A stretch of DNA of 21,384 nt from the IMG/VR virus record IMGVR_UViG_3300010883_000601, positions 1 through 21,384 of that record. The stretch is one strand, 5' to 3'. A model generated the notes under the pieces. That model made no database searches, was not told the DNA's origin, and worked only from the letters and a program-made list of their open reading frames with translations. Source of the DNA: a virus. The stretch's first letter is position 1; each line of letters starts with the position of its first letter. A program made the position numbers and the translations under genes. This document shows positions 1,701 through 19,387 of the stretch, one piece after another.

Positions 1701-2111
1701 ATGTATAAATCAGATGGTGGTAAAAAACAAGTTCCAAGTAATACAATTTATGGTGGGAATGAGGGAACAGGTTCAAATGCTAAAAAAAATTATAATTATG
1801 CTGATATTCCTGCTCCTATGACAGTAACAGATAGACCTGACCATATTGTTATCAATGGTGATGCTGGTGGTGGGACATATATGTTTAAATATTCATCTAC
1901 AGGTTCTTTAGGTGACACAATACCAGCTGTTGCAACCAAACCAGGTGATGGTGATGGTCCTTGGGTAAGTGGTTCAATACATCCAGGTGAAGGTGGAGCT
2001 ATAAAATTAGAAATAAATCCAAATGCATGGAAAAGAGTAGGAGCACATGCAACAGGTAATACTGGTATAGCAGGTGAAGTGACATATGTTTACAGTAAAC
2101 AAGATAAATAA
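1701..2111 (+). CDS. Hypothetical Gly-rich beta-type protein
   Basis: 136 residues, rich in Gly, Thr, Tyr and Asn, with beta-strand-like character and no membrane segment or cysteines. An AGGAG 6-10 bases before the ATG supports the start. Its composition, unlike the Lys-rich helical neighbours, suggests a folded virion surface or decoration protein, but I recognise no family. It lies just before the protease gene and shows no gp21-type leader. Confidence 0.7.
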   Translation: MYKSDGGKKQVPSNTIYGGNEGTGSNAKKNYNYADIPAPMTVTDRPDHIVINGDAGGGTYMFKYSSTGSLGDTIPAVATKPGDGDGPWVSGSIHPGEGGAIKLEINPNAWKRVGAHATGNTGIAGEVTYVYSKQDK

Positions 2112-2125
2112 AGGAGATATAGATA

Positions 2126-2755
2126 ATGAATAAAAAATTAATAGTAGATTATATACCATTTGAAATAGATAGAAGCACTATAAATGAGTCTCTTTCAAAA
2201 AATAATGGTAGACTTATTGTAAAGGGTGTCCTTCAAAGAGTAAATGCTAAAAATCAAAATGGTAGAATCTACCCAAGAGATGTTTTAGTTAAAGAAGCTA
2301 AAAAGTATGCTCAAGAAAATATAGCAGAACGAAGAGCTCTAGGTGAATTAGACCATCCTGAATCTTCTGTTGTTAACTTAAATAACGCTTCTCATAATAT
2401 ACTTGAAATGCATTGGAAAGGTGATGATTTATTAGGAACTGTAGAAGTTCTTTCAACACCAAGTGGAAACATCTTAAAAGAATTATTTAAAAGTGGTATT
2501 AAATTGGGTATATCATCTCGTGGTTTAGGTTCAGTTGAAGAAGTAAATGAGGGTGATGAAAAAGATGGAGACGAAGAAAATCCAACAGTTAAAGTTAAAG
2601 ATGACTTTGAATTAATTGCATTTGACTTCGTATCAAACCCATCTACACACGGAGCTTTTATGAAACCATCTTCAATGAATGAGAGTACTGGAAATAGAAT
2701 ACAAACAACTTCAAAAGTAGAATCTATAATTAATGATATATTGAGAGGTGAATAA
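2126..2755 (+). CDS. 21: Prohead maturation protease, T4 gp21 family
   Basis: 209 residues, close to T4 gp21 (212). Family signatures are visible: KNQNGRIYPRDVL (42-54), the His-containing GELDHPES (73-80, His77), the Ser-containing GISSRGLGS (128-136, Ser130/131) and FDFVSNPS (166-173). His and Ser are the expected catalytic residues of this serine protease family, which cleaves scaffold, core and capsid proteins after [I/L]-x-E inside the prohead. The N-terminus has I-N-E21|S22, a plausible self-cleavage point. AGGAG precedes the ATG. The linker around residues 139-160 is acidic. This gene sets the interpretation of the [I/L]-x-E leaders in the downstream genes. Confidence 0.93.
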   Translation: MNKKLIVDYIPFEIDRSTINESLSKNNGRLIVKGVLQRVNAKNQNGRIYPRDVLVKEAKKYAQENIAERRALGELDHPESSVVNLNNASHNILEMHWKGDDLLGTVEVLSTPSGNILKELFKSGIKLGISSRGLGSVEEVNEGDEKDGDEENPTVKVKDDFELIAFDFVSNPSTHGAFMKPSSMNESTGNRIQTTSKVESIINDILRGE

Positions 2756-2756
2756 T

Positions 2757-3098
2757 ATGGATTATAAGAAAGTAATGGGGTATAGTAAAGAATTAAAAAA
2801 GAAAGTTGTTAAAGAAATAACTAAACCTCGTGTTAATGAAGTGATTAATTCTATTAAAGAAGAGTTTGGATATAAAAATAAAATAAACGAAACATTACCT
2901 GCACTTGGTAGAGAATATGATAATTATTCAAAAGCTAGAAAATTATATTTAAAATCTGTTATTGATTTAGAAAAAGCTGCTGGTAAAGTTGATAGAACAT
3001 TTGGTAAACAAATACAGAGTGTTTGGAAAAAAACTATAAGTAATAATATGAAGAAGTTTGACGATGCACTTAATGATGTATTGAGTAAATTACAATAA
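2757..3098 (+). CDS. Hypothetical Lys-rich helical protein, possible prohead internal protein
   Basis: 113 residues from the ATG at 2757. A GTG at 2748 would add three residues, but the GAGAGG at 2743-2748 is better spaced for the ATG, which lies just beyond the gp21 stop. The first 45 residues are highly basic and helical and end in I-N-E45|T46, a possible gp21 site. The remainder (YSKARKLYLKSVIDLEKAA) is helical. No family recognised. Immediate coupling to gp21 and the possible cleavage site suggest a packaged internal or core protein. Confidence 0.7.
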   Translation: MDYKKVMGYSKELKKKVVKEITKPRVNEVINSIKEEFGYKNKINETLPALGREYDNYSKARKLYLKSVIDLEKAAGKVDRTFGKQIQSVWKKTISNNMKKFDDALNDVLSKLQ

Positions 3099-3113
3099 TT
3101 AGGAGAAAATAAG

Positions 3114-3452
3114 ATGAAATTAACTAGAGGTAAATTAAAAAAAATGATTGCAGAAGAACTTTTAAAAGAAGGTTTTAAAGATGATGTGAAAGCATTTCAA
3201 TCAGAAGTAGGTCAAGCTGAAGCTGGATGGAAAGAGAAGTATTCTCAATTAGAAGTAAGAGAAAACTCTATGAAATCAGTAAATCGTGTTCATAGAAGTT
3301 TAAAAGCTGTAGTTGAAGGATTTAAAAAAATGCCAATGGAAGAAACTTTAGGTATGGTAGGTAAAGGGCATAGTAAGAAATTTCAAAATGCAATTAGTGT
3401 TCTTGAAGGTATACTTGAAGATACAGGTGGCTGGATAAAAGAGAATCACTAA
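3114..3452 (+). CDS. Candidate capsid-targeted internal protein
   Basis: 112 residues. The leader MKLTRGKLKKMIAEELLKEG is an amphipathic Lys/Leu helix ending in L-K-E19|G20, the gp21 cleavage signature. This design parallels the T4 internal-protein capsid-targeting sequence, a short N-terminal helix removed by gp21. The mature part is helical, possibly coiled-coil, with a Gly-rich patch near 80. AGGAG lies 8-10 bases before the ATG. It overlaps the next gene by one base. Function of the mature protein unknown. Confidence 0.75.
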   Translation: MKLTRGKLKKMIAEELLKEGFKDDVKAFQSEVGQAEAGWKEKYSQLEVRENSMKSVNRVHRSLKAVVEGFKKMPMEETLGMVGKGHSKKFQNAISVLEGILEDTGGWIKENH

Positions 3453-4516
3453 TGACACCCAAAGAACGCAAAATATTAAAGGAAATTGTTAAAAAACAAA
3501 TTTTAAAAGAGACTAATACACCTGATAAATTTTCAAAGTTAATTACAGAGAATTACAAAAATTGGGAAATAGGTAAAGTTATGACTTTTAAAGACAATCC
3601 TCCTTTTAAAACACCTAAACAGATAAGAGAAGAAAATCTTACAGAAGCTCCACAAAAAGGTAAGCATGTAGTATATTATGAAAAGGGTTCAAGTGGAAAG
3701 AAAGTTCTTGATGTTAAACCAAATTATAAGAGTGCTGCACTAGCAATGAATAAACATATGAATACTGGTAAATATGAGACTGTTGGTATTCAACATTGGG
3801 AATCTTGGAATAAAGTTGAATCACCAAAGATTAAAGAAGGAAAACTTACAGAAGCTAATTCTTCTAAATATATACAGGCTCATAATAAAATGTATAAAGC
3901 TTATGAGAACTTTGCTAGAGAAGTTATGAATTTAGCTAAAACTTCATCTAAATTAGATGGTGATAAAGTAGATGAAAAAATCATTTTAAAGAATTTCAAA
4001 AAGGATGTTATTCCATTTATATCTTTAATGAAAGGTTGGTTAAAGGGTAAAATGAGAGAATCTGTGAATGAAGGAAAACTTAAAGAAGGTAAGTTTTCAA
4101 AAGAACATATACATATGTTGAAATTGGCGTATGGAAGTCTTGATAAAATGAACCCATCTTCACCTACCTATAAGAAATTTATTAAGTTTTTAGAGAAGCT
4201 ACCTAAAGACCAATTGAAACAATTGGCGAATGCTGATATAAAATTTGTATCAATGTTAGCAAAGAATAGAATGAAAGAAGGAAAACTTACAGAAGCTAAA
4301 GAAACAATATTTGATGTTGCAGCTAAAGTAATGCAAGATTCACAGATGTATAATTACAAAAGTAGAAAAGGTATGGTAAAGGTAGATATGCAAACGGCAA
4401 ATCTATTAACAAAAGTATGGAAAAAAGTAAGTCCTAAAATGAAAAAACATTTAGCAGGAATGGGTGAAGCCAATCCAGCTGGGTTAGTTCAAACTTTATG
4501 GGCTGCAGCTAAATAG
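3452..4516 (+). CDS. Candidate internal-protein polyprotein with repeated gp21 sites
   Basis: 354 residues. The leader ends in L-K-E20|T21. Near-identical linkers then recur: NLTE65|A66, KEGKLTE134|A135, NEGKLKE212|G213 and KEGKLTE281|A282. Each ends in [I/L]-x-E then Ala or Gly, the signature cut by T4 gp21. Cutting at all of them would release modules of about 45, 69, 78, 69 and 73 residues. The modules differ in sequence: the second is Tyr/Lys-rich and beta-like (KGKHVVYYEKGSSGKK), the others are helical. The linkers are conserved at DNA level (25 bp identical in two). This fits a head polyprotein processed during maturation. Module functions are unknown and cleavage is predicted, not shown. 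Confidence 0.8.
   Translation: MTPKERKILKEIVKKQILKETNTPDKFSKLITENYKNWEIGKVMTFKDNPPFKTPKQIREENLTEAPQKGKHVVYYEKGSSGKKVLDVKPNYKSAALAMNKHMNTGKYETVGIQHWESWNKVESPKIKEGKLTEANSSKYIQAHNKMYKAYENFAREVMNLAKTSSKLDGDKVDEKIILKNFKKDVIPFISLMKGWLKGKMRESVNEGKLKEGKFSKEHIHMLKLAYGSLDKMNPSSPTYKKFIKFLEKLPKDQLKQLANADIKFVSMLAKNRMKEGKLTEAKETIFDVAAKVMQDSQMYNYKSRKGMVKVDMQTANLLTKVWKKVSPKMKKHLAGMGEANPAGLVQTLWAAAK
3833..3857. repeat. 25-bp linker repeat, copy 1
   Basis: In-frame 25-bp sequence encoding KEGKLTEA, identical at every base to 4274-4298 in the same gene. A diverged copy lies at about 4067-4090 and a partial one at about 3629-3649. Each marks a predicted protease linker between modules. Confidence 0.95.
4274..4298. 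repeat. 25-bp linker repeat, copy 2
   Basis: Second exact copy of the 3833-3857 sequence, again in frame and encoding KEGKLTEA at residues 275-282. Identity at synonymous positions while the flanking modules differ points to recent duplication or recombination at the linkers. Confidence 0.95.
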
Positions 4517-4525
4517 GAGATAGAA

Positions 4526-4846
4526 ATGATTAATATGAAAAAATTATTAAAAGAGGGATTTGCTTGGGAACGAAAGTTTGGTGAATCTCTTCCAACAGTA
4601 GCAGAAGTACAAAAAAAATATGAAGATAAATTAAAAAACGAAGCTCCTGACCAATTAGAAAGAGAAAAAGTTCCTGCAAATGTAAATAGATTTATGACTA
4701 AATTTATCGATACACTTAAAGGTGCAAAACTTACAAGAAATAAACAAAAAGCAATTCTCTTTAAAGTAGTCAAAGCTTTAAATATATCACCAAAAGAATT
4801 AGCTATGTATACACAAAGAGTTAAAAAAGGCTTGGAAAAAAGATGA
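4526..4846 (+). CDS. Candidate capsid-targeted internal protein
   Basis: 106 residues. A short leader MINMKKLLKE10|G11 carries the L-x-E|G signature of gp21 substrates. The C-terminal two thirds (NVNRFMTKFIDTLKG to the end) is a compact basic helical region. AGGAG at 4516-4520 supports the first ATG; a second ATG at 4535 would also keep the leader. Stop and next start overlap (ATGATGA). No family recognised beyond the leader. Confidence 0.72.
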   Translation: MINMKKLLKEGFAWERKFGESLPTVAEVQKKYEDKLKNEAPDQLEREKVPANVNRFMTKFIDTLKGAKLTRNKQKAILFKVVKALNISPKELAMYTQRVKKGLEKR

Positions 4847-5139
4847 TGAAATTGAAATCTTTATTATTAACAGAAAAAAGGAAAATGGGTGATAAACAAC
4901 TAATGTCGATTAAACAAATGACAGATAGAAACAATCACACAGAAAACAGAAAAAAATTATCAAGTTTGATGGGAAATGATAAGTTAGCTCAATTCTATAA
5001 AGCTATGGCTACACTTAATTTAGTATTTAATGGTACTAACGCTGAAATGAATAAACTTAATCAAAAGATGGAAAAAGAATTTTATAAACAGATAAAAAAA
5101 TCTTATGCAAATGCGGAAGAGATTATAGGATTATTTTAA
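4843..5139 (+). CDS. Candidate capsid-targeted internal protein
   Basis: 98 residues. Two adjacent ATGs (4843 and 4846) overlap the previous stop; the second gives MKLKSLLLTE, closely matching the leader of the next gene (MKLKDLLVE) and so is perhaps the true start. Predicted gp21 cut is L-T-E|K. The remainder is a helical region rich in Lys, Asn and Met. Its stop shares one base with the next ATG (TAATG). Function unknown. Confidence 0.72.
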   Translation: MMKLKSLLLTEKRKMGDKQLMSIKQMTDRNNHTENRKKLSSLMGNDKLAQFYKAMATLNLVFNGTNAEMNKLNQKMEKEFYKQIKKSYANAEEIIGLF

Positions 5140-5486
5140 TGAAACTTAAAGATTTATTAGTAGAAGGTGTGACAAGTAAATACGCTGCTATATATCAAAT
5201 GAAAGAAGAGATGAAGAGTGGGAAGTTCGACCCCAAGAATCCGACAGTTAGTGTTAATGGTCTTGGAGTATATAATTTAAAATTATTAGAAAAAGTAATT
5301 AAGAGAGATTTAGGTAAAGCTGTAAATAATTTAGGGTATGAAAGTGGTATTAATAATTTAATGTATCACTTATATAAAGATAAATCACCATTAGGTTCAA
5401 AAATAAAAGGATTACACGAGGTATACCAACAGATGAATACATCACAATATAAGAGAGCTGTAACGATGTATAAGCGGAGAAAATAA
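5139..5486 (+). CDS. Candidate capsid-targeted internal protein
   Basis: 115 residues. The leader MKLKDLLVE9|G10 matches the gp21 signature and is nearly the same as that of the gene before it. The rest is a basic helical domain with Gly turns (VNGLGVYNLKLLEKVIKRDL) and a strongly basic C-terminus (MYKRRK). Start overlaps the upstream stop by one base. Packaged DNA-associated protein is a reasonable inference; no family recognised. Confidence 0.73.
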   Translation: MKLKDLLVEGVTSKYAAIYQMKEEMKSGKFDPKNPTVSVNGLGVYNLKLLEKVIKRDLGKAVNNLGYESGINNLMYHLYKDKSPLGSKIKGLHEVYQQMNTSQYKRAVTMYKRRK

Positions 5487-6137
5487 ATGGCTAAAGAAAA
5501 TTTTAATGCAAAAAATAAAAGTGGTAAAAAGGGTACATATAGTATGAATGAACGCAAGAATGCAGCTCGACCTATATCTCGTACACCACAAAATAGACAA
5601 ACCCCTGGTGGCTTAATTAATAAACCTTTTCGTTGGTCTTGGTTAGATGATGGTGGTATGAGTAAAGTGAAAGGTGCATTTTGGATGGGTAATCCAAATT
5701 CAAGTATGTTTCAGCAATGTGATTGTAGATGCAGCTGCGATGTACCAACAGAAGCATTAACAATGCCCGATGGTACTCTATGTCCTACTTCATCACCATA
5801 TGGTGGATATAAATTTGTTCAAGAACCTCATCCTATCGGACATATGGATGATTGGAATTATGGATGGGGAATGCAGCATGGACTTGACAATTGTGATAAT
5901 ATAACATCTGGTGGCACTGCAAATAGATATTGTCATTTTGAACAACTTGGAGTAAATGATGGATTCTCAATTGATTTTAATGGTGTAGAAACTTCTGATG
6001 AATGTTCAGATTTATGTGGGAATCATTGTTTAAATAACTCTGATGAATGTGGAGAGCTGTATGGTTTATGTGGAGCTCCAACTGCCCCTGGACCACGACC
6101 AAGAGGTAGAAATGGTGGAACAGGTGGACAATATTGA
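5487..6137 (+). CDS. Cys-rich protein with MAKENF leader
   Basis: 216 residues. The N-terminus MAKENFNAKNKSGKK is basic and shared with small proteins at 16806 and 17134, and resembled by 16650. The rest is rich in Gly, Asp, Asn, Trp and Tyr with 12 cysteines, including clusters CDCRCSC (about 78-84), DECSDLCGNHC and DECGELYGLC. The C-terminus is Pro/Arg/Gly-rich. Clustered Cys suggest metal binding or disulfides in a secreted or virion-exposed protein. It carries no gp21-type leader, so it interrupts the run of candidate internal proteins. Starts immediately after the previous stop. Role unknown. Confidence 0.72.
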   Translation: MAKENFNAKNKSGKKGTYSMNERKNAARPISRTPQNRQTPGGLINKPFRWSWLDDGGMSKVKGAFWMGNPNSSMFQQCDCRCSCDVPTEALTMPDGTLCPTSSPYGGYKFVQEPHPIGHMDDWNYGWGMQHGLDNCDNITSGGTANRYCHFEQLGVNDGFSIDFNGVETSDECSDLCGNHCLNNSDECGELYGLCGAPTAPGPRPRGRNGGTGGQY

Positions 6138-6796
6138 AAATAACCGAATTACAGATAAGAGAAATTATTAAAAAAGTTATTTCGGAAAAAAGAGATTACA
6201 AAGATGAATACAAGAAATTTCAATCATCTACTAAATCTAAAAAGTACCGAGCAGAATTAAATGCCTATAATAGAAAAAAAGGTACTTATGGTAATGGTGA
6301 TGGTTTAGATGCATCACATAAGAATGGTAAAATTGTAGGGTTTGAAGAGCAATCGAAGAATAGAGGAAGAGCTGAAAAGAGTAGATTAAAGAAAGAAGGG
6401 AAACTTGATGAACTTGGTGGGTTTAGTATAGATGGTAGTACTGATTTTAATGATACTTATATAGCTCCAAAGAGAGATACATCAAAAGGTGATATGAAAA
6501 CATTTTATCAAAAGTTTTCATCTCCTGAAGCTAAAAAAGTAGTAGATGGTAAGTTAGCTGACTATGTTAAGGGGTTAAGAAAATTAGAAGGTAAGTTGGT
6601 TAAAGATTGGATGACAGCTGCTAAATCAGGTAATATTGACTTTTTTGATTTAATGAGAGGATTCAATACTGGTGATGTTCAAAGAGCACATAAATTTGAA
6701 ATAGATTTTTTAACAGGTGTACTACAAAGAGATAAAATACAAGACAGATTTAGAAGTTACTTCAAAGGTAAAAAAGGTAAACATAGAGGAAAATAA
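6134..6796 (+). CDS. Candidate internal protein with HNH-like segment
   Basis: 220 residues from a TTG start that overlaps the previous stop (TTGA), with AGGTGGA at 6122-6127 as ribosome site. The leader ends V-I-S-E18|K19. Residues 21-86 (RDYKDEYKKFQ ... YGNGDGLDASHKNG ... SKNRGRAEKSR) have the D-x-S-H ... N-R spacing reminiscent of HNH endonucleases: D59, H62, N64, N76, R77. A KKEGKLDE93 linker like that of the 3452-4516 protein follows. The C-terminal part (94-220) is helical and very basic at the end. The HNH reading is tentative because the full metal-binding set is not obvious. A protein cut into two packaged parts would fit. Confidence 0.72.
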   Translation: MKITELQIREIIKKVISEKRDYKDEYKKFQSSTKSKKYRAELNAYNRKKGTYGNGDGLDASHKNGKIVGFEEQSKNRGRAEKSRLKKEGKLDELGGFSIDGSTDFNDTYIAPKRDTSKGDMKTFYQKFSSPEAKKVVDGKLADYVKGLRKLEGKLVKDWMTAAKSGNIDFFDLMRGFNTGDVQRAHKFEIDFLTGVLQRDKIQDRFRSYFKGKKGKHRGK

Positions 6797-7083
6797 TGGC
6801 TATTACTAACAAAGAAATATGTGAACGATTGCAATGTATTGAAAATAGACTACCAAATGGTGAACTTTTAGAAATACACGAAAATGTCAAAGAAATTAAA
6901 GAAATTCTTTTAGACCCCGAAGATGGTGTTATTGTCCGTGTTAATAAAAACACATATTGGAGAAAAGAAATCGACTCAGACGAATTTAAAGCATTATTAA
7001 GATGGAAACAAGGTGTAACACACGCGATGTGGGTTGCTTACACAGCATTAATAGGAATTATAGTAAAAATAATATTTTTTTAA
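6796..7083 (+). CDS. Small membrane protein, XhlA-like architecture
   Basis: 95 residues. An N-terminal heptad-like helix (about 4-38, IENRLPNGELLEIHENVKEI) and a GVIVRVNKNTYWRK segment are followed by one C-terminal hydrophobic span (about 76-94) ending in FF. Cytoplasmic coiled coil plus C-terminal anchor is the layout of XhlA-type proteins that help holins. It lacks the gp21-type leader. It shares one base with the upstream stop. A lysis role is possible but not demonstrated; membrane anchoring is the safe statement. Confidence 0.7.
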   Translation: MAITNKEICERLQCIENRLPNGELLEIHENVKEIKEILLDPEDGVIVRVNKNTYWRKEIDSDEFKALLRWKQGVTHAMWVAYTALIGIIVKIIFF

Positions 7084-7110
7084 TACTTATAGTATATAGG
7101 AGACAATAAA

Positions 7111-7677
7111 ATGGCAAAACTAAAATCACTTTTAGAAGATGTTCTAAAAGAAACAAGAAGAAATAAAAGACACGAAACTATCGAGAGTGTAAGAGGGTAT
7201 GGTGGATTAGGTAGTGGATTATATAAAAATAATGTACTTGAAGTTGCATCAAAATTATCTGAAATAGCAGATGCTGCACATTCTCATATAATCGGTGAAA
7301 ATGATGAATGGTTTGATAAGATAACCGTTAATAAAAATATGAAATCACTAAAAGGTAGTGTTTCAGAATTTAAAAAAGCTGCTCTTGAATCACATAGATT
7401 AAATCAAAGAATGACTGCTTTATATGAAGATATGGGTGGAGTTCTGAATCGTTATTATGACATAGATGAAGGTCTACTTGAAGGTGACAAAGGTGATATG
7501 GATAACGATGGTAAAGACGAACCAGATGATGAAGAATATATGGATAACAAAGACAAAGCTATTAAAAAAGCAATGGGTGAGACTTACGCTAATATATCAA
7601 AAAGACCAACTAAAAGACTAAAAGATATTAATAGTGTAGTTGGTATTGGTGTTGTAGGTAATTCATTTAAGAAATAG
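7111..7677 (+). CDS. Candidate capsid-targeted protein with Ca-loop-like motif
   Basis: 188 residues. Leader MAKLKSLLEDVLKE14|T15 matches the gp21 signature. A central helical domain (about 65-118, EWFDKITVNKNMKSLKG ... LYEDMGGVLNRYYDI) resembles a region I remember from uncharacterised marine T4-like proteins. Another possible site L-L-E124|G125 precedes D129-M-D131-N-D133-G-K-D136, the DxDxDG pattern of EF-hand or dockerin calcium loops, and an acidic patch. The C-terminal 30 residues are basic. AGGAG precedes the ATG. Probably packaged and cut in two; function unknown. Confidence 0.76.
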   Translation: MAKLKSLLEDVLKETRRNKRHETIESVRGYGGLGSGLYKNNVLEVASKLSEIADAAHSHIIGENDEWFDKITVNKNMKSLKGSVSEFKKAALESHRLNQRMTALYEDMGGVLNRYYDIDEGLLEGDKGDMDNDGKDEPDDEEYMDNKDKAIKKAMGETYANISKRPTKRLKDINSVVGIGVVGNSFKK

Positions 7678-8028
7678 ATGATAGAACTTTATCATCATCT
7701 AGAACATTTGATGATGTACAGTTTATTATTATGGCAATGTACATTGAGTGTTTGGTTAATCTTAAAGTGGATTAACAAAAATTGGAAGACAAAAAAGACA
7801 TTTTCTGTTATGTCTCCAACAGAGAGTAAACAACCAATTATAAATATAGATGGTTCTTCTATTAGTGGAATGTCTACCACTAAAAAGAATATGGGACCAA
7901 TCGATGTAGATATACAAAAAAATATAGTAGTAGGTGATGTTGATAAATCAGATTTAAGTAAATCGACTGATATAACAAAAGGTAAAGTTAAAACACAGAA
8001 GGATAAGCTGAGGAGTTTAAGAAAATGA
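7678..8028 (+). CDS. Membrane-anchored protein with DVDIQ C-terminal module
   Basis: 116 residues. One hydrophobic span at about 10-31 (LMMYSLLLWQCTLSVWLILK) is followed by a polar, Ser/Thr/Lys-rich tail. The tail IDVDIQKNIVVGDVDKS ... KVKTQKDKLRSLRK matches the C-terminus of the soluble protein at 17599 (IEVDIQREIAIGNVDIS ... KVNTSKLKKLKALRK). The ATG directly follows the previous stop. The shared tail suggests a common binding partner, with this copy tethered to the membrane. Function unknown. Confidence 0.68.
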   Translation: MIELYHHLEHLMMYSLLLWQCTLSVWLILKWINKNWKTKKTFSVMSPTESKQPIINIDGSSISGMSTTKKNMGPIDVDIQKNIVVGDVDKSDLSKSTDITKGKVKTQKDKLRSLRK

Positions 8029-8231
8029 AAAAATCATTTAAAGAAACATTAAAAAACATAGGTGGTGGTCATCTACTTAAAGAAGCTTCTGGTAAAGTTT
8101 CGGTAGGATTTTCAAATACAATGGGTGCCTTATATGTAAGTAAAGGTAATCAAAAGACGGTTGAATTAAAGAAAGCTGATGTTGAAGAGATTATAAAGCA
8201 GTATAAAAAATTTAAAAGTAAAATGGACTAA
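8025..8231 (+). CDS. Small candidate internal protein
   Basis: 68 residues. The N-terminus MKKSFKETLKNIGGGHLLKE20|A21 ends in the gp21 signature followed by Ala, the favoured T4 context. The short mature part (about 48 residues) has a beta-like half (GKVSVGFSNTMGALYVSKG) and a Lys-rich helix. It overlaps both neighbours (ATGA at the start, TAATG at the end). No family recognised. Confidence 0.7.
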   Translation: MKKSFKETLKNIGGGHLLKEASGKVSVGFSNTMGALYVSKGNQKTVELKKADVEEIIKQYKKFKSKMD

Positions 8232-8515
8232 TGAATATAAGTAAAGAGGATATATTGGAAATTATTAAAGAGGAAATTCAAAAAATTAATGAAGGTCCAA
8301 GAGATTTTATCCATCATAGTCAAGCAAAGTTTTTACAAGTACCTAAAAATGATATAAATAAAGTAGGTAAACTACTTAAAAAATTTAAATGGCAGGTTGA
8401 AGTTGATACAAAACCTGTTAGAGTACCAGGGCATATTAAAGTAACTACAACAAAAAAAATCTATAATAATGTTCTTGAAATTTTAATGAAAAATAATATA
8501 AAAGTAAGAGGTTAA
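8231..8515 (+). CDS. Small candidate internal protein
   Basis: 94 residues. The leader MNISKEDILEIIKEEIQKIN ends at E21|G22, with I-N-E|G as gp21 signature. The mature part is about 73 residues, basic, with alternating beta and helix (VGKLLKKFKWQVEVDTKPV ... IKVTTTKKIYNNVLEILMK) suggesting a small folded alpha/beta domain. Start shares one base with the preceding stop. Function unknown. Confidence 0.72.
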   Translation: MNISKEDILEIIKEEIQKINEGPRDFIHHSQAKFLQVPKNDINKVGKLLKKFKWQVEVDTKPVRVPGHIKVTTTKKIYNNVLEILMKNNIKVRG

Positions 8516-8518
8516 TAT

Positions 8519-9553
8519 ATGGCTAAGGGTTTAGATTGTGGGACATCGTTTTATATAGCAGCTACAGACAAGAGTATAAAAAAACAAAGAAATGCGTTTT
8601 TAACAGTAGATGGTGAAGCTGCACAAGTAAAACGAATGTTAAAAAGACAGAGTATTCCATTTGTGGAAAAAGCAGGTAAAGTTCACATTGTTGGACAACA
8701 CGCATTTAATTATGCACAGATATTTAATACGACAGAATTAAAAAGACCTATGAAAAGTGGTCTTCTTAATCCTCAAGAACGAGATGCATTACCAGTACTA
8801 AATGCAATAGTTGGTGAATTATTAGGTAAAGCTAAAAAAGATGAAGTGTGTGTTTATTGTATACCTTCAAAACCAATTGACCAAGACAGGGAAGTTTCGT
8901 ATCACGAAGATGTATTAAGGACTATTATAGGTGGATATGGATATGATGTTAAAGTTATTGAAGAAGCAGTTGCAATAGGTTATGAGGGACTTGTAGATAA
9001 TAATCTTACAGGTATAGCTATTTCAATGGGAGCTGGTATGTGTAACATTGCTGTTATGTATGCTGGCATGTCAGCATTATCATTTTCAGTAGCTAGAGGT
9101 GGTGACTGGATTGATATTAATAGTGCAAACGATTGTGGTGTATCAACATCAAAAGTAACAGCAGTTAAAGAAAATTCAAATCAATTAGATTTGACACAGA
9201 GTAAAATACAAGATATTTATGAAGAGGGAACTGCAGAACAAAATATAGTTAATGCTATTCGTTCTTATTATGGAGCTCTTATAAATTATCTTTTAACAAA
9301 TTTAAAAAATCAATTTGAAAATACAGATAACATGCCAAACTTTCCAGATAAGATACCAATTGTTATTGGTGGTGGAACAGCATTAGTAAAAGGATTTTTA
9401 GATGTATTTCACGAGCAATTTGATGCTGAGAAATTTCCAATACCAATTAGTGACATAGTATTAATAGAAGACGCTCATACAGCAGTCTCAAGAGGCTGTT
9501 TAAGTGAAGCACAACTCATAGAGGAGGAACAAAGTGAGAAAGACAACAGTTAA
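8519..9553 (+). CDS. Actin/MreB/Hsp70-fold ATPase
   Basis: 344 residues, the usual size of prokaryotic actins. Fold motifs in order: phosphate-1 GLDCGTS (4-10), a strand-helix region with CVYCIPSKP (111-119), connect-1-like EEAVAIGYEGL (148-158), phosphate-2-like SMGAGMCNIAV (169-179), ARGGDWID (192-199) and adenosine motif IVIGGGTALVKGF (281-293). In phosphate-2 the usual Asp of DxGxGT is Ser169, so nucleotide chemistry may differ. No leader or membrane segment. It lies between the internal-protein island and the scaffold gene. Filament formation, host-cell positioning or chaperone-like head assembly are possible; only the fold is well supported. Its end overlaps the next gene by 20 bp. Confidence 0.85.
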   Translation: MAKGLDCGTSFYIAATDKSIKKQRNAFLTVDGEAAQVKRMLKRQSIPFVEKAGKVHIVGQHAFNYAQIFNTTELKRPMKSGLLNPQERDALPVLNAIVGELLGKAKKDEVCVYCIPSKPIDQDREVSYHEDVLRTIIGGYGYDVKVIEEAVAIGYEGLVDNNLTGIAISMGAGMCNIAVMYAGMSALSFSVARGGDWIDINSANDCGVSTSKVTAVKENSNQLDLTQSKIQDIYEEGTAEQNIVNAIRSYYGALINYLLTNLKNQFENTDNMPNFPDKIPIVIGGGTALVKGFLDVFHEQFDAEKFPIPISDIVLIEDAHTAVSRGCLSEAQLIEEEQSEKDNS

Positions 9554-9815
9554 AGAAGTCAAACAATGGATGAGAACTCTTGAAGAGAACAGATATAAGA
9601 AAACTTATGCATCTGATGCTCGTAGAGTTTCTTGGATGGTAAATAATAACTTATCTGAAGATTATGAAGCTATGCCTACAACTATGAGAAAAAAATGGTC
9701 TAAGGCAGCATATGGAAGAGAAAGATTTCTTGCAAAGGAATTTGTAAAACATAAAAAAGCAGAACAGAAATTGAGAGAATCGATTAGAAAAGTATTAAAA
9801 GGTTTATTAAATTAA
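9534..9815 (+). CDS. Small basic hypothetical protein
   Basis: 93 residues from a GTG start, chosen because a strong GAGGAGG (9521-9527) sits 6-7 bases upstream inside the end of the actin-like gene. The protein is basic and helical with aromatic motifs (RRVSWMVNNNLSEDYEAMP, KAAYGRERFLAKEF). Its C-terminus (LRESIRKVLKGLLN) is an amphipathic Lys/Leu helix similar in style to the leaders of the island. T-L-E-E near residue 17 is only a weak gp21-like site. The overlap implies co-translation with the actin-like protein. Function unknown. Confidence 0.75.
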   Translation: MRKTTVKEVKQWMRTLEENRYKKTYASDARRVSWMVNNNLSEDYEAMPTTMRKKWSKAAYGRERFLAKEFVKHKKAEQKLRESIRKVLKGLLN

Positions 9816-9840
9816 AATTTAGATAAAATAAGAGGTAAAA

Positions 9841-10083
9841 ATGAAACAAAAAAAGAACTTTAGGAAAAAAAAACACCCTAAAGAACAATTACAAGGTTTA
9901 CAAGTAAAGGTTTTTAATAACAATGTAGAGGGTGCTTTAAAAATATTAAAAAGGAAAGTAAAGGATAGTAATCTATTCATAGAATTAAGAGAAAGAGAAT
10001 ACTATACAAAACCTTCAGAAACTAAAAGACACAAGCACAATTTAGCAAAATTACGAAATAAATATAACTTAGAAAAAAATTAA
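9841..10083 (+). CDS. rpsU: Phage-encoded ribosomal protein bS21 homologue
   Basis: 80 residues. The core (about 22-65) matches bS21: VKVFNNNVEGALKILKRKV followed by FIELREREYYTKPSETKRHK, equal to the family's conserved N-x-x-(x)-A-L-x-x-x-K-R...R-R-x-x-Y-x-K-P-S-x-x-R pattern. bS21 sits near the anti-Shine-Dalgarno end of 16S rRNA on the 30S subunit, so a phage copy could bias initiation toward phage mRNAs. Phage bS21 genes are known in marine viruses. A basic 20-residue N-terminal extension precedes the core. It is preceded by AGAGG before the ATG and is the last gene before the scaffold promoter region. Confidence 0.85.
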   Translation: MKQKKNFRKKKHPKEQLQGLQVKVFNNNVEGALKILKRKVKDSNLFIELREREYYTKPSETKRHKHNLAKLRNKYNLEKN

Positions 10084-10106: not shown

Positions 10107-10125
10107 TTCATATATTTATATACGA
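10107..10125 (+). promoter_or_regulatory. Putative late promoter box upstream of the scaffold gene
   Basis: ttcatatatttatatacga contains TATTTATA at 10113-10120 and differs by one base from 19294-19312 upstream of the sheath gene. TATTTATA is the reverse complement of the T4 late -10 box TATAAATA. Promoter function and rightward direction are inferred from location before gp22. Confidence 0.5.
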
Positions 10126-10234: not shown

Positions 10235-11377
10235 ATGAGTGATATTTTAAAAGAAGCTATCGCGGATGCTAAAGCAGTTAGAGAAACAGCTTTACAAAAC
10301 GCAAAGATGGCATTACAAGAAGCATTCACTCCTCAACTTAAATCTATGCTTTCTGCAAAACTTAAAGAAGACGATATGGATGATGAAGATGATGTAGCTA
10401 TGGATGATGAAATGGGCGATGAAGAGGAAGAAGAAGTTCCTGCTGAATATGCCGATACTGATGAAATGGCTGACTATTCTGAAGACGAAATGGAAGACGA
10501 AGAAATGGGTGGCGAAGAAGATATGGGTGACGAAGAAATGGGTGACGAGGAAGGCGAAGAAGATATGGAATCTGAAAGCCTTGAACTTGAAGACATTATT
10601 CGTGAACTAGAAGATGAATTATCAGCTGATGGTGAAGAAGAGGGCGAAGAGGAAGTAGACGAGACTATTGAAGTTAATGGTGTTCGATATGCTCCAATTC
10701 GTGAAGGTGAAGATAAAGAAGATGAAGAAGAAATCGATGAGATACAGAAAAAAGGGCGTCCTGGTTACCTTAAAAAAGGTGAAGCAGACCCTGATACAGC
10801 TGCATCTGCAGGCGATTCTGTAAACGAATCTAACGAAGAGTATGAAATTAGTGATACTTTATTTGAGGAAGATGAAGATGATGATGATGATGAAGAAGTA
10901 GACGAAGGAAAAACACCATCTGTATCTTCTAACATAGGCAAGGGTGGTAATCCAGATACGAACTACGCTCCTACTGAAGACCCAGGTAAAAATAAAATTT
11001 CAGAAATAGTAACTGAGTTAGCAGAATACAAAGAAGCAGTACATTTCTTGAAAGATAAACTTCACGAAGTGAACATCTTGAATGCTAAACTATTATTCAC
11101 AAATAAATTGTTTAAAGAATATGCTCTTGATAACAATCAGAAATTAAAAGTAGTCGAAACTTTTGATAGAGCACAATCTACAAGAGAGATTAAACTTGTT
11201 TATTCTACACTTGCAGAACAATTTACAGATAATAGTAATATAATTAACAGAAAATCAATAACCGAATCAGCTAGTGCTAAATCAGGTTCAACTAAACCTT
11301 CTAAAGGGTCACGAAAAGTGATTTCTGAAGAAAGTCAAGTTGCTAATCGATTTAAGAAATTAGCTGGTATCTTATAA
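10235..11377 (+). CDS. 22: Prohead scaffold/core protein, T4 gp22-like
   Basis: 380 residues, longer than T4 gp22 (269) because of a large Asp/Glu-rich region (about 46-225). The order is N-terminal helix MSDILKE7|A8 with LQEAF a little later (both gp21-type sites), acidic low-complexity core, then a conserved-looking helical C-terminal region (about 253-325, EYKEAVHFLKDKLHEVNILN ... STREIKLVYSTLAEQF) and end ANRFKKLAGIL. Position directly before the capsid gene, acidic core and terminal helix fit the major scaffold, assembled inside the prohead and digested by gp21. GGAG precedes the ATG. Confidence 0.85.
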   Translation: MSDILKEAIADAKAVRETALQNAKMALQEAFTPQLKSMLSAKLKEDDMDDEDDVAMDDEMGDEEEEEVPAEYADTDEMADYSEDEMEDEEMGGEEDMGDEEMGDEEGEEDMESESLELEDIIRELEDELSADGEEEGEEEVDETIEVNGVRYAPIREGEDKEDEEEIDEIQKKGRPGYLKKGEADPDTAASAGDSVNESNEEYEISDTLFEEDEDDDDDEEVDEGKTPSVSSNIGKGGNPDTNYAPTEDPGKNKISEIVTELAEYKEAVHFLKDKLHEVNILNAKLLFTNKLFKEYALDNNQKLKVVETFDRAQSTREIKLVYSTLAEQFTDNSNIINRKSITESASAKSGSTKPSKGSRKVISEESQVANRFKKLAGIL

Positions 11378-11391
11378 TTGGAGAATAAATA

Positions 11392-13098
11392 ATGTCAAAT
11401 TACATTAACGAAGCGTTGTTAGACGCTAGTCCTTATAGGAAACAGAAAGATGAAGCCGGCAAACTCGTGTCAAAATGGGAAAAAACTGGCCTTCTTGAAG
11501 GTCTTAATGAGGATTTTAACAAAAGTGGAATGGCAGTTCTTCTTGAAAACCAAGCTAGACAGTTGATTAACGAGTTTAATACAACTTCACCGTCTGGTAC
11601 TGGAACAAGTAATCAAGAAGAATGGTCAGGTGTAGCTCTACCACTAGTACGAAGAATATTTTCTTCTATAGCTGCACAAGACTTTGTGTCAGTTCAACCA
11701 ATGAACTTACCATCTGGTCTAGTATTTTACTTAGACTTTAAATATGGTACTACACAAAATGGTTTTACAAAAGGTAAATCTGTATTTGGTGATACAGGTC
11801 CTTTAACAACATCAGGTTCAACTGCTCCTTATGGTGTAGGTGGATTTTATGGTGATAACGATAAAAATGGTAACATACCTGGATATGACTATACTATCAG
11901 TCAATCAGCTGTTATACCTACTGCAAGTAATTGGAGCTGGGAATCAATAGCAGTGGCAGACCATACAGTATCAGGAGCTATTGCTTTTGATTTTGATGCA
12001 GAATTATCTGCATCAGTATTAGCTGCTAAAGCTGTTGATACTTGGTTTAAAGTACATATACCTATTGGTGATTTACCAAATGCTGATTTTAAAGCTATTA
12101 GAAGCTTTCATATTGGTGGTAGTGGTTCAGCTGCAGGTCTTACAGATGGTACAGCTGTATCAGCTTCAATACCTCAATTGACTAAACTATCAGCTGACGG
12201 TGGATATGTTTCATTCGTAATAAACGCTGATTCTGAAGCTGATGTTGAACAAGATTCAGGTCTTCAAGTTGTTTATTCAAAACAACCTACTGCTGAAAAC
12301 AGAGGTGACTTTGAAGATAGATTAGGTCATTCTGATGATGGTATAGACTTAAGCATACCTCAAGTAGACCTACAACTTAATAGTTTATCTATTGTCGCTA
12401 AGACTCGTAAGCTAAAAGCTGTATGGACTCCTGAGTTAGCTCAAGACTTGAATGCTTATCACTCAGTTGATGCTGAAGCTGAATTAACTTCAATGTTAAG
12501 TGAATATATTTCAATGGAAATTGATTTAGAAATACTTGATATGTTAGTTACTGATGCTGTAACAACTGATTACTGGTCAGCTAGACCTGGTAATGACTTT
12601 AACTCTGCTACAAACACATTTGAAAACACTACCTTCACAGGTACTCGTTTTGAGTGGTGGCAGACACTTGTTGGTAAGGTACAGAAAGTATCTAACGAAA
12701 TTCATAGATTAACATTAAGAGGTGGAGCTAACTTTGTAGTTTGTGGTCCTAAGATTGCTACTATATTAGAATCTCTACCAGGCTTTATGGCTGATACTGA
12801 TGGAAATCAAATGAACTTCGCAATGGGTGTTCAAAAAGTGGGTGGATTACAAAGTAGATTTAATGTCTATAAAAATCCATATATGGCTGAAAACACAATG
12901 TTAGTTGGTTTCAGAGGAGGAAACTTCTTAGAAACTGGTGCTGTGTATGCTCCATATGTTCCATTGATTATGACACCTCTTGTATATGACCCAGAAGACT
13001 TTACACCAAGAAAAGGTGTAATGACTAGGTACGCTAAGAAAATGGTACGACCTGAGTTTTATGCTAAGATTCATTGTACTGACTTAAACCTAATATAA
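11392..13098 (+). CDS. 23: Major capsid protein, T4 gp23 family
   Basis: 568 residues (T4 gp23: 521). The block ALPLVRRIFSSIAAQDFVSV followed by QPMNLPSG aligns by eye with the T4 segment VMGMVRRAIPNLIAFDICGVQPMNSPTG. Near the C-terminus PLIMTPLVYDPEDFTPRKG and MTRYAKKMVRPEFY are typical. The N-terminal about 61 residues look like the removable delta peptide, ending L-I-N-E61|F62, where Phe after the cut is unusual compared with Ala in T4. Forms the hexameric shell after scaffold removal. GGAG precedes the ATG. A strong hairpin follows the stop. Confidence 0.95.
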   Translation: MSNYINEALLDASPYRKQKDEAGKLVSKWEKTGLLEGLNEDFNKSGMAVLLENQARQLINEFNTTSPSGTGTSNQEEWSGVALPLVRRIFSSIAAQDFVSVQPMNLPSGLVFYLDFKYGTTQNGFTKGKSVFGDTGPLTTSGSTAPYGVGGFYGDNDKNGNIPGYDYTISQSAVIPTASNWSWESIAVADHTVSGAIAFDFDAELSASVLAAKAVDTWFKVHIPIGDLPNADFKAIRSFHIGGSGSAAGLTDGTAVSASIPQLTKLSADGGYVSFVINADSEADVEQDSGLQVVYSKQPTAENRGDFEDRLGHSDDGIDLSIPQVDLQLNSLSIVAKTRKLKAVWTPELAQDLNAYHSVDAEAELTSMLSEYISMEIDLEILDMLVTDAVTTDYWSARPGNDFNSATNTFENTTFTGTRFEWWQTLVGKVQKVSNEIHRLTLRGGANFVVCGPKIATILESLPGFMADTDGNQMNFAMGVQKVGGLQSRFNVYKNPYMAENTMLVGFRGGNFLETGAVYAPYVPLIMTPLVYDPEDFTPRKGVMTRYAKKMVRPEFYAKIHCTDLNLI

Positions 13099-15023: not shown

Positions 15024-15887
15024 ATGGCTTACAATCGTAATAGAAAAATGAATGCTGGTAGAAAGGCATCGTCAAGACCAAATTTCAGGAAAGCAGCACC
15101 GTCTCAAACCCCAAGAATGCAACAAATGGGTAAAACGAATAGAGTACAAACAGTAGATTATATGGGAGCAACATTTAGAGTTTCAATGAACCCAATGAGA
15201 CCGGGTAGTGGTACTTTTACTTTAGTAAGAGGTAATTTGAATGGTGTAAAAATTCCAGGAGGTGTCAAACCAGGTAATGAATATATGGGATGGCCTGGAG
15301 AAAAACCAGATGATGGTGGTAATGAATCGGATTGTTTTAGTAGAAATTCTATTGTTAAATTAGAAAATGGAAATAATATTTCAATAAGTAAATTAAAAAT
15401 TGGTGATAAAGTAAAAACTATTAATAAGAATGGTAAAACAGAGTATTCAGAAGTTTATGCTTGGTTCCATAAATCGTATGAAGATTATCGTGATGATTAT
15501 ATAAATGTTAAAACTGAAGATAATACTTTAACAATAACACCGCAACATAGAATATTTGTAAATGATGTAGATAGTCCAGCTTCAGATATAAAAGTTGGTG
15601 ATACTATAAGTGGTCAGAAAGTTACAAGTGTAGATAGTATTACTGCATATGGTAAATATGCACCAGCAACAAAAAATGGATTTATTGTCGTTGATGGTAT
15701 AAATTGTTCTTGTTATGCATTTTATAGTCATAACTTCTGTCATGCAATGGTAAATGTATTATTAAAACCTCTTGTTAAACTTGTTCCTTCATTAGGTTCT
15801 TGGTTAGGTAAAGATGGTATTAATAAATTTTGTGCACCATTTATGAAAGATAGAACAATTGGAAGATTAATAACTAAATTAGGATAA
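15024..15887 (+). CDS. Hedgehog-type Hint domain protein
   Basis: 287 residues. Residues 1-103 are a basic tail plus a Gly/Pro-rich region; a Hint domain follows from Cys104. Motifs in order: C104-F-S at the start, IVKLENGNNISISKLKIGDK (110-129), T172-P-Q-H175 (the TxxH catalytic pair), IKVGDTISG (189-197), YAPATKNGFIVVDG (212-225) and C228-S-C230-Y-A (228-232), with His240 after it. The YAP-x-T...G...VVDG...SCYA pattern is that of hedgehog autoprocessing domains rather than inteins. Such domains rearrange the peptide bond before the first Cys to a thioester and release or esterify the N-terminal part. A 47-residue tail follows. It sits between neck genes; AGGAG precedes the ATG. Activity and purpose are inferred. 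Confidence 0.85.
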   Translation: MAYNRNRKMNAGRKASSRPNFRKAAPSQTPRMQQMGKTNRVQTVDYMGATFRVSMNPMRPGSGTFTLVRGNLNGVKIPGGVKPGNEYMGWPGEKPDDGGNESDCFSRNSIVKLENGNNISISKLKIGDKVKTINKNGKTEYSEVYAWFHKSYEDYRDDYINVKTEDNTLTITPQHRIFVNDVDSPASDIKVGDTISGQKVTSVDSITAYGKYAPATKNGFIVVDGINCSCYAFYSHNFCHAMVNVLLKPLVKLVPSLGSWLGKDGINKFCAPFMKDRTIGRLITKLG

Positions 15888-16805: not shown

Positions 16806-16825
16806 ATGGCAAAAGAAAATTTTAA
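16804..16825. repeat. 22-bp repeat at MAKENF gene start, copy 1
   Basis: Exact 22-bp match to 17132-17153, covering the start codon and leader codons. A third copy with one mismatch lies at 5485-5506. Shows that the leader spread by duplication. Confidence 0.9.
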
Positions 16826-17123
16826 TACAAACCCTAAAAAAAATACAAACTTACACGATAGAAGAAATATTGGGACTCATAAGAACAAAGGGCAGTGGCA
16901 TTTTGATAGTACTGGTCCTGGAATGGGGAAGAAAAAATATACTCAACAAGAAATTGTAAACTTATATTATAACTCAACTAAATTCCAAACTCAGTTTGGT
17001 AACCCACCATCTCATAATGTTGATGGTTTCTGGTTATACTTATGTTGTAAAATAACAGGTTCGTATGGTGGTGAATCAGCACAATCTTCTTGTTGGGGTG
17101 ATTGCGGTGGTTCAACCAATTAG
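16806..17123 (+). CDS. MAKENF-leader small protein with Cys cluster
   Basis: 105 residues: basic leader MAKENFNTNPKKN, then Lys/His-rich sequence, a helical KKYTQQEIVNLYYNSTKF segment and a Cys-bearing end (YLCCK and SSCWGDCGG, four Cys). AGGAG in the end of the upstream gene serves as ribosome site. Related to 17134 and 5487 by leader and Cys-rich end. Likely a small virion or envelope-exposed protein; function unknown. Confidence 0.7.
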   Translation: MAKENFNTNPKKNTNLHDRRNIGTHKNKGQWHFDSTGPGMGKKKYTQQEIVNLYYNSTKFQTQFGNPPSHNVDGFWLYLCCKITGSYGGESAQSSCWGDCGGSTN

Positions 17124-17131
17124 GAGATAAC

Positions 17132-17153
17132 AAATGGCAAAAGAAAATTTTAA
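17132..17153. repeat. 22-bp repeat at MAKENF gene start, copy 2
   Basis: Exact copy of 16804-16825 spanning the start codon of the next gene. Confidence 0.9.
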
Positions 17154-17325
17154 AGTAAAACAGGGAAAAAAACATCATAGTAAAGCTCAACCTAAATTAA
17201 AAAATAACCCAGGTGGTGATGATGAGACTTATGGTTGGTTTTGTTGTGCTTTTAATTTGTGGTGTTGTAATGATGGTAGAAACCATCCAAGAGAATATCC
17301 TAATAAACCTAATCCACCTTATTAG
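17134..17325 (+). CDS. MAKENF-leader mini-protein with CC...CC motif
   Basis: 63 residues: basic leader MAKENFKVKQGKKHHSK, then WFCCAFNLWCCNDG (two Cys pairs) and a Pro/Asn-rich end. AGGAG is 9-13 bases before the ATG. The paired Cys suggest disulfide or metal binding. The first 8 codons are nearly identical in DNA to those of the preceding gene. Function unknown. Confidence 0.68.
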   Translation: MAKENFKVKQGKKHHSKAQPKLKNNPGGDDETYGWFCCAFNLWCCNDGRNHPREYPNKPNPPY

Positions 17326-18876: not shown

Positions 18877-18895
18877 TTGATGGTTTGAAAAAAAA

Positions 18896-18916
18896 CTATA
18901 TATTTATATATATATA
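18896..18916 (+). promoter_or_regulatory. Putative late promoter box upstream of the 18932 gene
   Basis: TATTTATA at 18901-18908 inside a TA-rich tract, 23 bp before the next ATG and followed by AGGAGG. Same core as the three other intergenic boxes. Confidence 0.45.
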
Positions 18917-18931
18917 CAATAGGAGGTTACA

Positions 18932-19249
18932 ATGCCAGAAGAAAAATCAAAAATAGAAGAAAAATACAAACAAGCAACTGAACCAGTTAAATTTAATGAA
19001 GACGAAATGAAATCAGTCAAAGATTTAAAACAAACTTATGGTTCTATTCAAGTACAATTTGGACAAGCTGCAATAACTAAGATAAAATTAGAAGAAGAGA
19101 TTGATGGTCTTAATAAATATGCAGATGAACTAAAAACACAATTCCTAGAAACACAGAAAAAAGAAGGTAGTTTTTTAGATTCTATTAAAGAGAAATATGG
19201 TGACGGGGAACTAAATCCTGAAACAGGTATTTTTACACCAGTAGACTAA
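18932..19249 (+). CDS. Small acidic coiled-coil protein
   Basis: 105 residues, charged and helical, with heptad-like stretches at about 40-80 (ITKIKLEEEIDGLNKYADEL) and a conserved-looking end YGDGELNPETGIFTPVD. A strong AGGAGG 7-12 bases before the ATG. It lies between gp15-like and sheath genes with its own promoter-like box. It could be a tail assembly factor; no family recognised. Confidence 0.75.
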   Translation: MPEEKSKIEEKYKQATEPVKFNEDEMKSVKDLKQTYGSIQVQFGQAAITKIKLEEEIDGLNKYADELKTQFLETQKKEGSFLDSIKEKYGDGELNPETGIFTPVD

Positions 19250-19293
19250 AATAATCATAAAAAATAAAAATATAATTGATGTTTGCAGTTAAC

Positions 19294-19312
19294 TTCATAT
19301 ATTTATATATGA
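19294..19312 (+). promoter_or_regulatory. Putative late promoter box upstream of the sheath gene
   Basis: ttcatatatttatatatga, with TATTTATA at 19300-19307, is 18/19 identical to the box before gp22. It overlaps the start of a perfect 14-bp palindrome (gacaattaattgtc, 19311-19324). The 138-bp gap 19250-19387 otherwise holds only AT-rich sequence and the sheath ribosome site (AGGAG). Confidence 0.55.
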
Positions 19313-19387
19313 CAATTAATTGTCTAAAAGCATGCATAAAATAACAAAAAAACAAGTTTTAAATACTAATATATTAGGAGAAAATTA

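Follow-up and report, generated by a model that had tools for sequence, protein, structure and literature searches.

A volactin-family actin gene in the head operon of an uncultured T4-like marine phage, with a possible role in late assembly

What is an actin-like gene doing among the head genes of a T4-like phage? The window, by which we mean the whole 21.4-kb stretch of DNA analyzed here, is an uncultured virus record from a T4-like marine phage with T4-type head and tail genes. An initial annotation, made from the letters alone, had placed an actin-like ATPase within the head-morphogenesis cluster (Table 1). The open reading frame (ORF) starts 3 nt past the upstream stop codon and overlaps the following gene. 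Its protein matched the Pfam family Volactin (PF25216) with 248.6 bits (E value, 1.4e-73; residues 1 to 331; profile positions 1 to 321 of 321) against a curated cutoff of 35 bits, while its match to MreB_Mbl was marginal (27.3 bits) and PHROGs assigned it no family. We found at least 100 close relatives, the best 80 of which were 73 to 92% identical. The gene is under strong purifying selection (dN/dS of 0.083 between the window and its closest relative, L002; clade median, 0.13). The Pfam match, the relatives, the dN/dS values, and the confidence of the AF2 model described below show that the ORF is real and not a chance reading frame.

Table 1. Coordinates of the volactin gene, its motifs, and the surrounding genes in the window
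Feature	Position	Strand	Details
gp21-like prohead protease (Peptidase_S77)	2126..2755	+	
Tightly packed small genes	2748..8515	+	Most with N-terminal (L/I)xE prohead-core-like signal
Volactin-family actin-like protein	8519..9553	+	ATG start, 344 aa; PF25216, AF2 model, dN/dS ~0.1
Phosphate-1 motif GLDCGTS	8528..8548	+	Residues 4-10, D6 invariant; alignments and column counts
E149	8963..8965	+	Aligned with MreB catalytic Glu (hhalign); Glu in 400/401 homologues
Phosphate-2 motif SMGAGM	9023..9040	+	Residues 169-174, Ser for Asp, Met for Thr; hhalign against MreB
Adenosine motif GGT	9371..9379	+	Residues 285-287; columns invariant or near-invariant
Helical 93-aa protein	9534..9815	+	Overlaps volactin gene by 20 nt; candidate adaptor
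bS21 ribosomal protein	9841..10083	+	Pfam E 3.8e-13
Acidic gp22-like scaffold	10235..11377	+	Assigned by position and composition alone; no profile match
gp23 major capsid protein	11392..13098	+	Pfam Gp23 4.8e-77

The AF2 model (pLDDT, 90.1; pTM, 0.88; 40-sequence alignment) has an actin fold with a two-domain nucleotide cleft, and this excludes a tubulin/FtsZ fold. Compared by VIA-align, the model matched MamK, BeeR, MreB, and F-actin with Z scores of 24 to 28: the best match was the MamK filament (Z, 28.2; 297 residues; 3.0 Å), followed by the BeeR filament (Z, 26.8) and by Mbl/MreB and F-actin (Z, about 25 to 26). The comparison with known actins that the initial annotation had proposed thus returned an actin fold whose nearest solved relatives are filament formers and, with the PF25216 match, upholds an actin-like ATPase fold inside the head cluster. 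A search of a viral structure library yielded only remote actin-fold matches, such as Bacillus phage G gp506 (14% identity). The window protein is almost certainly a member of the volactin family with an actin fold. The full set of actin motifs that had been claimed could also be located in the ORF, namely, phosphate-1, connect-1 (EEAVA, containing E148/E149), the phosphate-2 position, the adenosine motif (reading GGGTALVKGF), and connect-2 (AVSRG).

We aligned the profile of the window volactin family with four MreB sequences (hhalign), which set S169-M-G-A-G-M174 on the MreB motif D-I-G-G-G-T. This register agrees with the initial annotation that Ser169 stands in place of the phosphate-2 Asp, and it adds a second family-wide change, from Thr to Met174, that the annotation had missed; both the canonical Asp of the actin superfamily and the adjacent Thr are therefore replaced. 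Residue 169 was Ser in 401 of the 401 volactin homologues collected, a count that is partly circular because some of the collection scans had Ser in their search patterns, and in all 77 members of a set gathered by patterns that avoided this position. Met174 was near-invariant across the 401. The Haloferax motif reads S-F-G-A-G-M, with the Ser present in the volactin of Haloferax gibbonsii, and the Haloferax volcanii genome matches PF25216 above the cutoff. In Caulobacter crescentus MreB, the attacking water is held by E140 and T167 (PMC4051119); by their spacing in the four MreBs, these residues correspond to E149 and M174 of the window protein. The further proposal that Ser169 signals altered hydrolysis peculiar to this protein did not hold: because Ser is invariant throughout the family, the Haloferax volactins included, a phage-specific lesion is ruled out. 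Since the change is a family trait, and since H. volcanii volactin polymerizes and depolymerizes, forming dynamic filaments in vivo (PMC10869688), Ser169 does not point to an ATPase that is broken or has been modified by the phage. With both phosphate-2 residues changed, the ATPase cycle could nonetheless be slow or absent, and the paired Asp-to-Ser and Thr-to-Met replacements offer a natural test of ATP hydrolysis by actins.

The gene surroundings agree with the initial annotation and comprise a gp21 protease, an acidic gp22-like protein, and gp23. Genes from 1701 to 10083 lie on one strand, separated by no more than 27 nt, and the window also encodes an Ad2-like neck protein, a gp15-like protein, and a tail sheath. 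In the 80 relatives, gp22 lay downstream of volactin in 71 and gp23 in 69, at distances of 1.5 to 5.4 kb; many of the remainder are short contigs. For a control scan that started from gp23, we compared loci that extended 8 kb upstream. Volactin was present in all 5 such loci with a gp23 identity of at least 58% and absent from 19 sister loci (gp23 identity, 47 to 56%) that had gp22-gp23 and, mostly, a detectable gp21. The absence of a counterpart in T4, which had been noted at the outset, thus extends to T4-like sister phages with the same gene order. Because these sisters keep the gp21-gp22-gp23 order without volactin, the distribution of the gene across loci suggests that it was most likely inserted into a preexisting head operon, probably in a single event, so that the loci are not independent; loss in the sister phages would be a less likely account of the pattern. 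The neighboring bS21 is a bacterial ribosomal protein. Phage-encoded bS21 has been associated with structural genes being expressed late (PMC9723584). From this neighbor and the position in the operon, we infer a bacterial host and late expression of the volactin operon.

Other features of the window concern its promoters and structural genes. The T4 late-promoter motif TATAAATA was not enriched (7 occurrences versus 4.9 expected). A second motif, TATTTATA, which is the T4 late-promoter element in reverse complement, occurs on the coding strand at 10113, 13777, 18901, and 19300, and all four copies are intergenic although intergenic sequence makes up only 839 of the 21,384 bases by the gene list. 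Its ATTTATA core was found upstream of gp22 in 11 of 11 relatives checked, and it is possibly a late promoter of this phage group. A 16-nt intergenic repeat, ACGAACAAACCTTAAT, lies at 10122 and 13694, upstream of gp22 and the neck gene; upstream of gp22 in 11 relatives, the first 11 bases of the repeat were not found. The neck/tail region contains a Hint-module protein (15024 to 15887; Pfam E value, 5e-28) with a Cys at the start of the domain, a possible self-processing virion protein. Small Gly/Cys-rich proteins starting with MAKENF, possibly paralogous, are scattered in the structural region (5487 to 6137, 16806 to 17123, and 17134 to 17325), and a perfect 18-bp tandem repeat at 1348 to 1425 encodes PTPKKK within the ORF at 862 to 1551.

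The small gene that overlaps the 3' end of the volactin gene travels with it. An 80-residue domain of its product was encoded in 73 of 80 volactin-bearing relatives, either downstream of volactin or about 1 kb upstream, and in 0 of the 19 volactin-less sister loci; loci of the gp23 set that carried the domain without a detected volactin had little upstream sequence. By this distribution the domain appears to have been gained together with volactin, and the co-gain may be one evolutionary event. In some relatives the domain is fused to larger, prohead-core-like ORFs, which carry an N-terminal (L/I)xE-type signal; several of these ORFs have at their start a lysine-rich segment resembling that of the small genes upstream of gp22. 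The AF2 model of the window protein (pLDDT, 88.7) consists of three helices without strands, so it is not a ribbon-helix-helix protein, and it matched neither a PDB entry nor a DNA-binding fold. We consider it a candidate adaptor between filament and cargo.

To our knowledge, the volactin family has so far been characterized experimentally only in salt-loving archaea. Profile scans nevertheless recovered at least 580 to 590 viral contig stretches encoding volactin, and nearly all of the large records checked (225 to 595 kb) were single-copy. Volactin was encoded in only two of 50,697 phage records, both of them uncultured huge phages; we found no paper on phage volactin and no cultured phage that carries it. 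Archaeal volactins occurred in Halobacteria, Methanosarcinales, Archaeoglobi, and Methanophagales, and bacterial ones (in MAGs or genomes) in Omnitrophota, Planctomycetota, Desulfobacterales, Acidobacteria, and others. In the phylogenetic tree, phage volactins split into several lineages. The window protein grouped with those of two other phages, L394 (55% identity) and L322, with support of 100/100; its nearest neighbors were other phages and then, with weak support, Planctomycetota/Omnitrophota proteins. Acquisition from an archaeal host is not supported, as bS21 points to a bacterial host and the tree neighbors are phages. Among bacteria, a Patescibacteria MAG (L106, 1356 to 3690) has volactin next to two gas-vesicle genes (GvpL/GvpF) and one for an ArsA ATPase, and in a Desulfobacterales MAG (L095, 8497 to 11261) volactin lies near ArsA-like and Hsp20 genes, a possible link with gas vesicles. 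It adjoins a ParA-like ATPase in two Omnitrophota sequences (L089, 4164 to 8461, and L090); the first volactin of L089 is followed by another that has an N-terminal extension.

The genomic context of volactin differs among phage lineages. In L394 and L322 it lies one or two genes upstream of the portal gene, and in LR756511 and its relatives it lies between gp25 and terminase, roughly 12 to 24 kb away from either gene; that region of LR756511 also encodes a gp23-like capsid protein. In L313, L314, L319, and L321 it sits beside UvsX, DnaB, SbcCD, or clamp-loader genes, which rules out that volactin is always found in structural modules and means that a virion-assembly role is not general. A conserved cassette surrounds volactin in the LR745208-like clade, where the tail-sheath identity of a neighbor of 1,500 to 1,800 residues was not confirmed and terminase, sheath, and gp25 profiles had no match in the genomes; whether this context is structural is uncertain. 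These contexts support the view that volactin is a cytoskeletal tool of general use, employed in late assembly by the window clade, and not a universal virion factor. No tubulin (PF00091; E value threshold, 1e-3) was detected in 20 volactin-bearing records of 225 to 595 kb. The same search detected PhuZ in all three phiKZ-like controls (phiKZ, 201phi2-1, and PhiPA3; E values, 2.6e-8 to 5.1e-4), and these had no volactin. This pattern is only suggestive, since most jumbo phages outside the phiKZ group, as far as we know, lack PhuZ anyway. In L394, the closest sister phage, a reverse-transcriptase-like gene (phrog_2825/1423; 18880 to 19782), possibly a diversity-generating element, lies in the vicinity of volactin.

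What, then, might volactin do in the window phage? We assign a probability of about 0.5 to the reading that it forms a phage cytoskeletal filament that organizes assembly or packaging late in infection. Volactin would assemble into ATP-dependent filaments inside the infected bacterium and, because its gene is built into the head operon, would be made late, alongside the proteins of the prohead core, scaffold, and capsid. In the manner of PhuZ in phiKZ-like phages, these filaments would place or transport either proheads during their assembly or the genome during its packaging, and the 93-residue helical protein may link filament to cargo. The phosphate-1 Asp and the catalytic Glu are retained and the nearest structures are filament formers; the fold, the conserved site, and the behavior of Haloferax volactin together suggest that the window protein binds ATP and probably polymerizes.

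The main rival to late assembly is DNA positioning, in which ParM/AlpC-like filaments would push or tether replicated phage genomes rather than capsids and the helical protein would be a DNA-binding adaptor. The AlpC/AlpA pair of prophage CGP3 works in this way (PMC4446434), salactin of Halobacterium aids DNA partition (described in PMC10869688), and the volactins set among replication genes in several other phage clades fit such a role. We nevertheless regard it as rather unlikely here. Scans of the region and the window revealed no iterated centromere-like repeats near volactin, in contrast to the 24 copies in alpS; expression of AlpAC is early, whereas the window gene belongs to the head operon; and the strandless three-helix model of the partner matched no DNA-binding fold. 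A nonfilamentous role, as a monomeric or oligomeric ATPase serving as a component of the prohead core, scaffold, or chaperone machinery, would suit the position of the gene between core-like proteins and gp22, the fusion of the neighboring domain to ORFs with (L/I)xE signals, and phosphate-2 changes that could mean a weak ATPase. It is improbable given that the first 30 residues of volactin, unlike those of most neighbors, have no (L/I)xE signal, that sister phages build heads without volactin, and that the nearest structures are filaments. Least probable is host takeover, whereby the phage actin would co-assemble with or disrupt host MreB and so change wall synthesis or cell shape: the MreB-like fold, the marginal MreB_Mbl match, and a bacterial host are in its favor, but genes for takeover are as a rule expressed early and located elsewhere than in the head operon, and conservation of volactin across archaea, bacteria, and phages argues for self-assembly.

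Returning to late assembly, we note a broader and more tentative version, in which volactin is a widespread non-tubulin counterpart of PhuZ that serves hundreds of T4-like and jumbo phages. In the T4-like clade, its insertion into the head operon along with a dedicated adaptor, which would bind the filaments to proteins of the prohead core, would have led to actin-guided capsid assembly. What is known of phage-made filaments comes mainly from PhuZ tubulin and a small number of ParM-like actins. Volactin is a distinct actin family, characterized elsewhere only in archaea, and is encoded in at least 580 viral contigs, many of them more than 200 kb long; as the family occurs in hundreds of uncultured phages, often giant ones, actin filaments of their own may be made by many phages. 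If volactin polymerizes, phage cytoskeletons are commoner than supposed, and the idea of actin-assisted virion assembly in bacteria can be put to the test.

The closest experimental parallel is VolA (HVO_2015) of H. volcanii, which is similar in length, homologous over its full length (haloarchaeal homologues are 31 to 36% identical), and shares the altered phosphate-2 motif S-x-G-x-G-M. VolA is an archaeal cell-shape protein, whereas the window volactin belongs to a T4-like phage of a bacterium, is encoded in a head operon, ends in an acidic C-terminal tail, and is linked to a helical protein of 93 aa. MreB and MamK are the closest solved folds (about 16 to 19% identity), although the MreBs compared keep the canonical D-x-G-G-G-T and form a separate clade on a long branch of the tree. 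AlpC of the Corynebacterium prophage CGP3 is likewise an actin that a phage encodes together with a small partner gene; it is early and acts with a DNA-binding adaptor and the alpS repeats (PMC4446434), in contrast to the repeat-free head operon of the window and a partner unlike known DNA-binding folds. With PhuZ of the phiKZ-like jumbo phages, the window volactin would share a phage-made cytomotive filament during infection, built in the one case on a tubulin/FtsZ fold and in the other on an actin fold.
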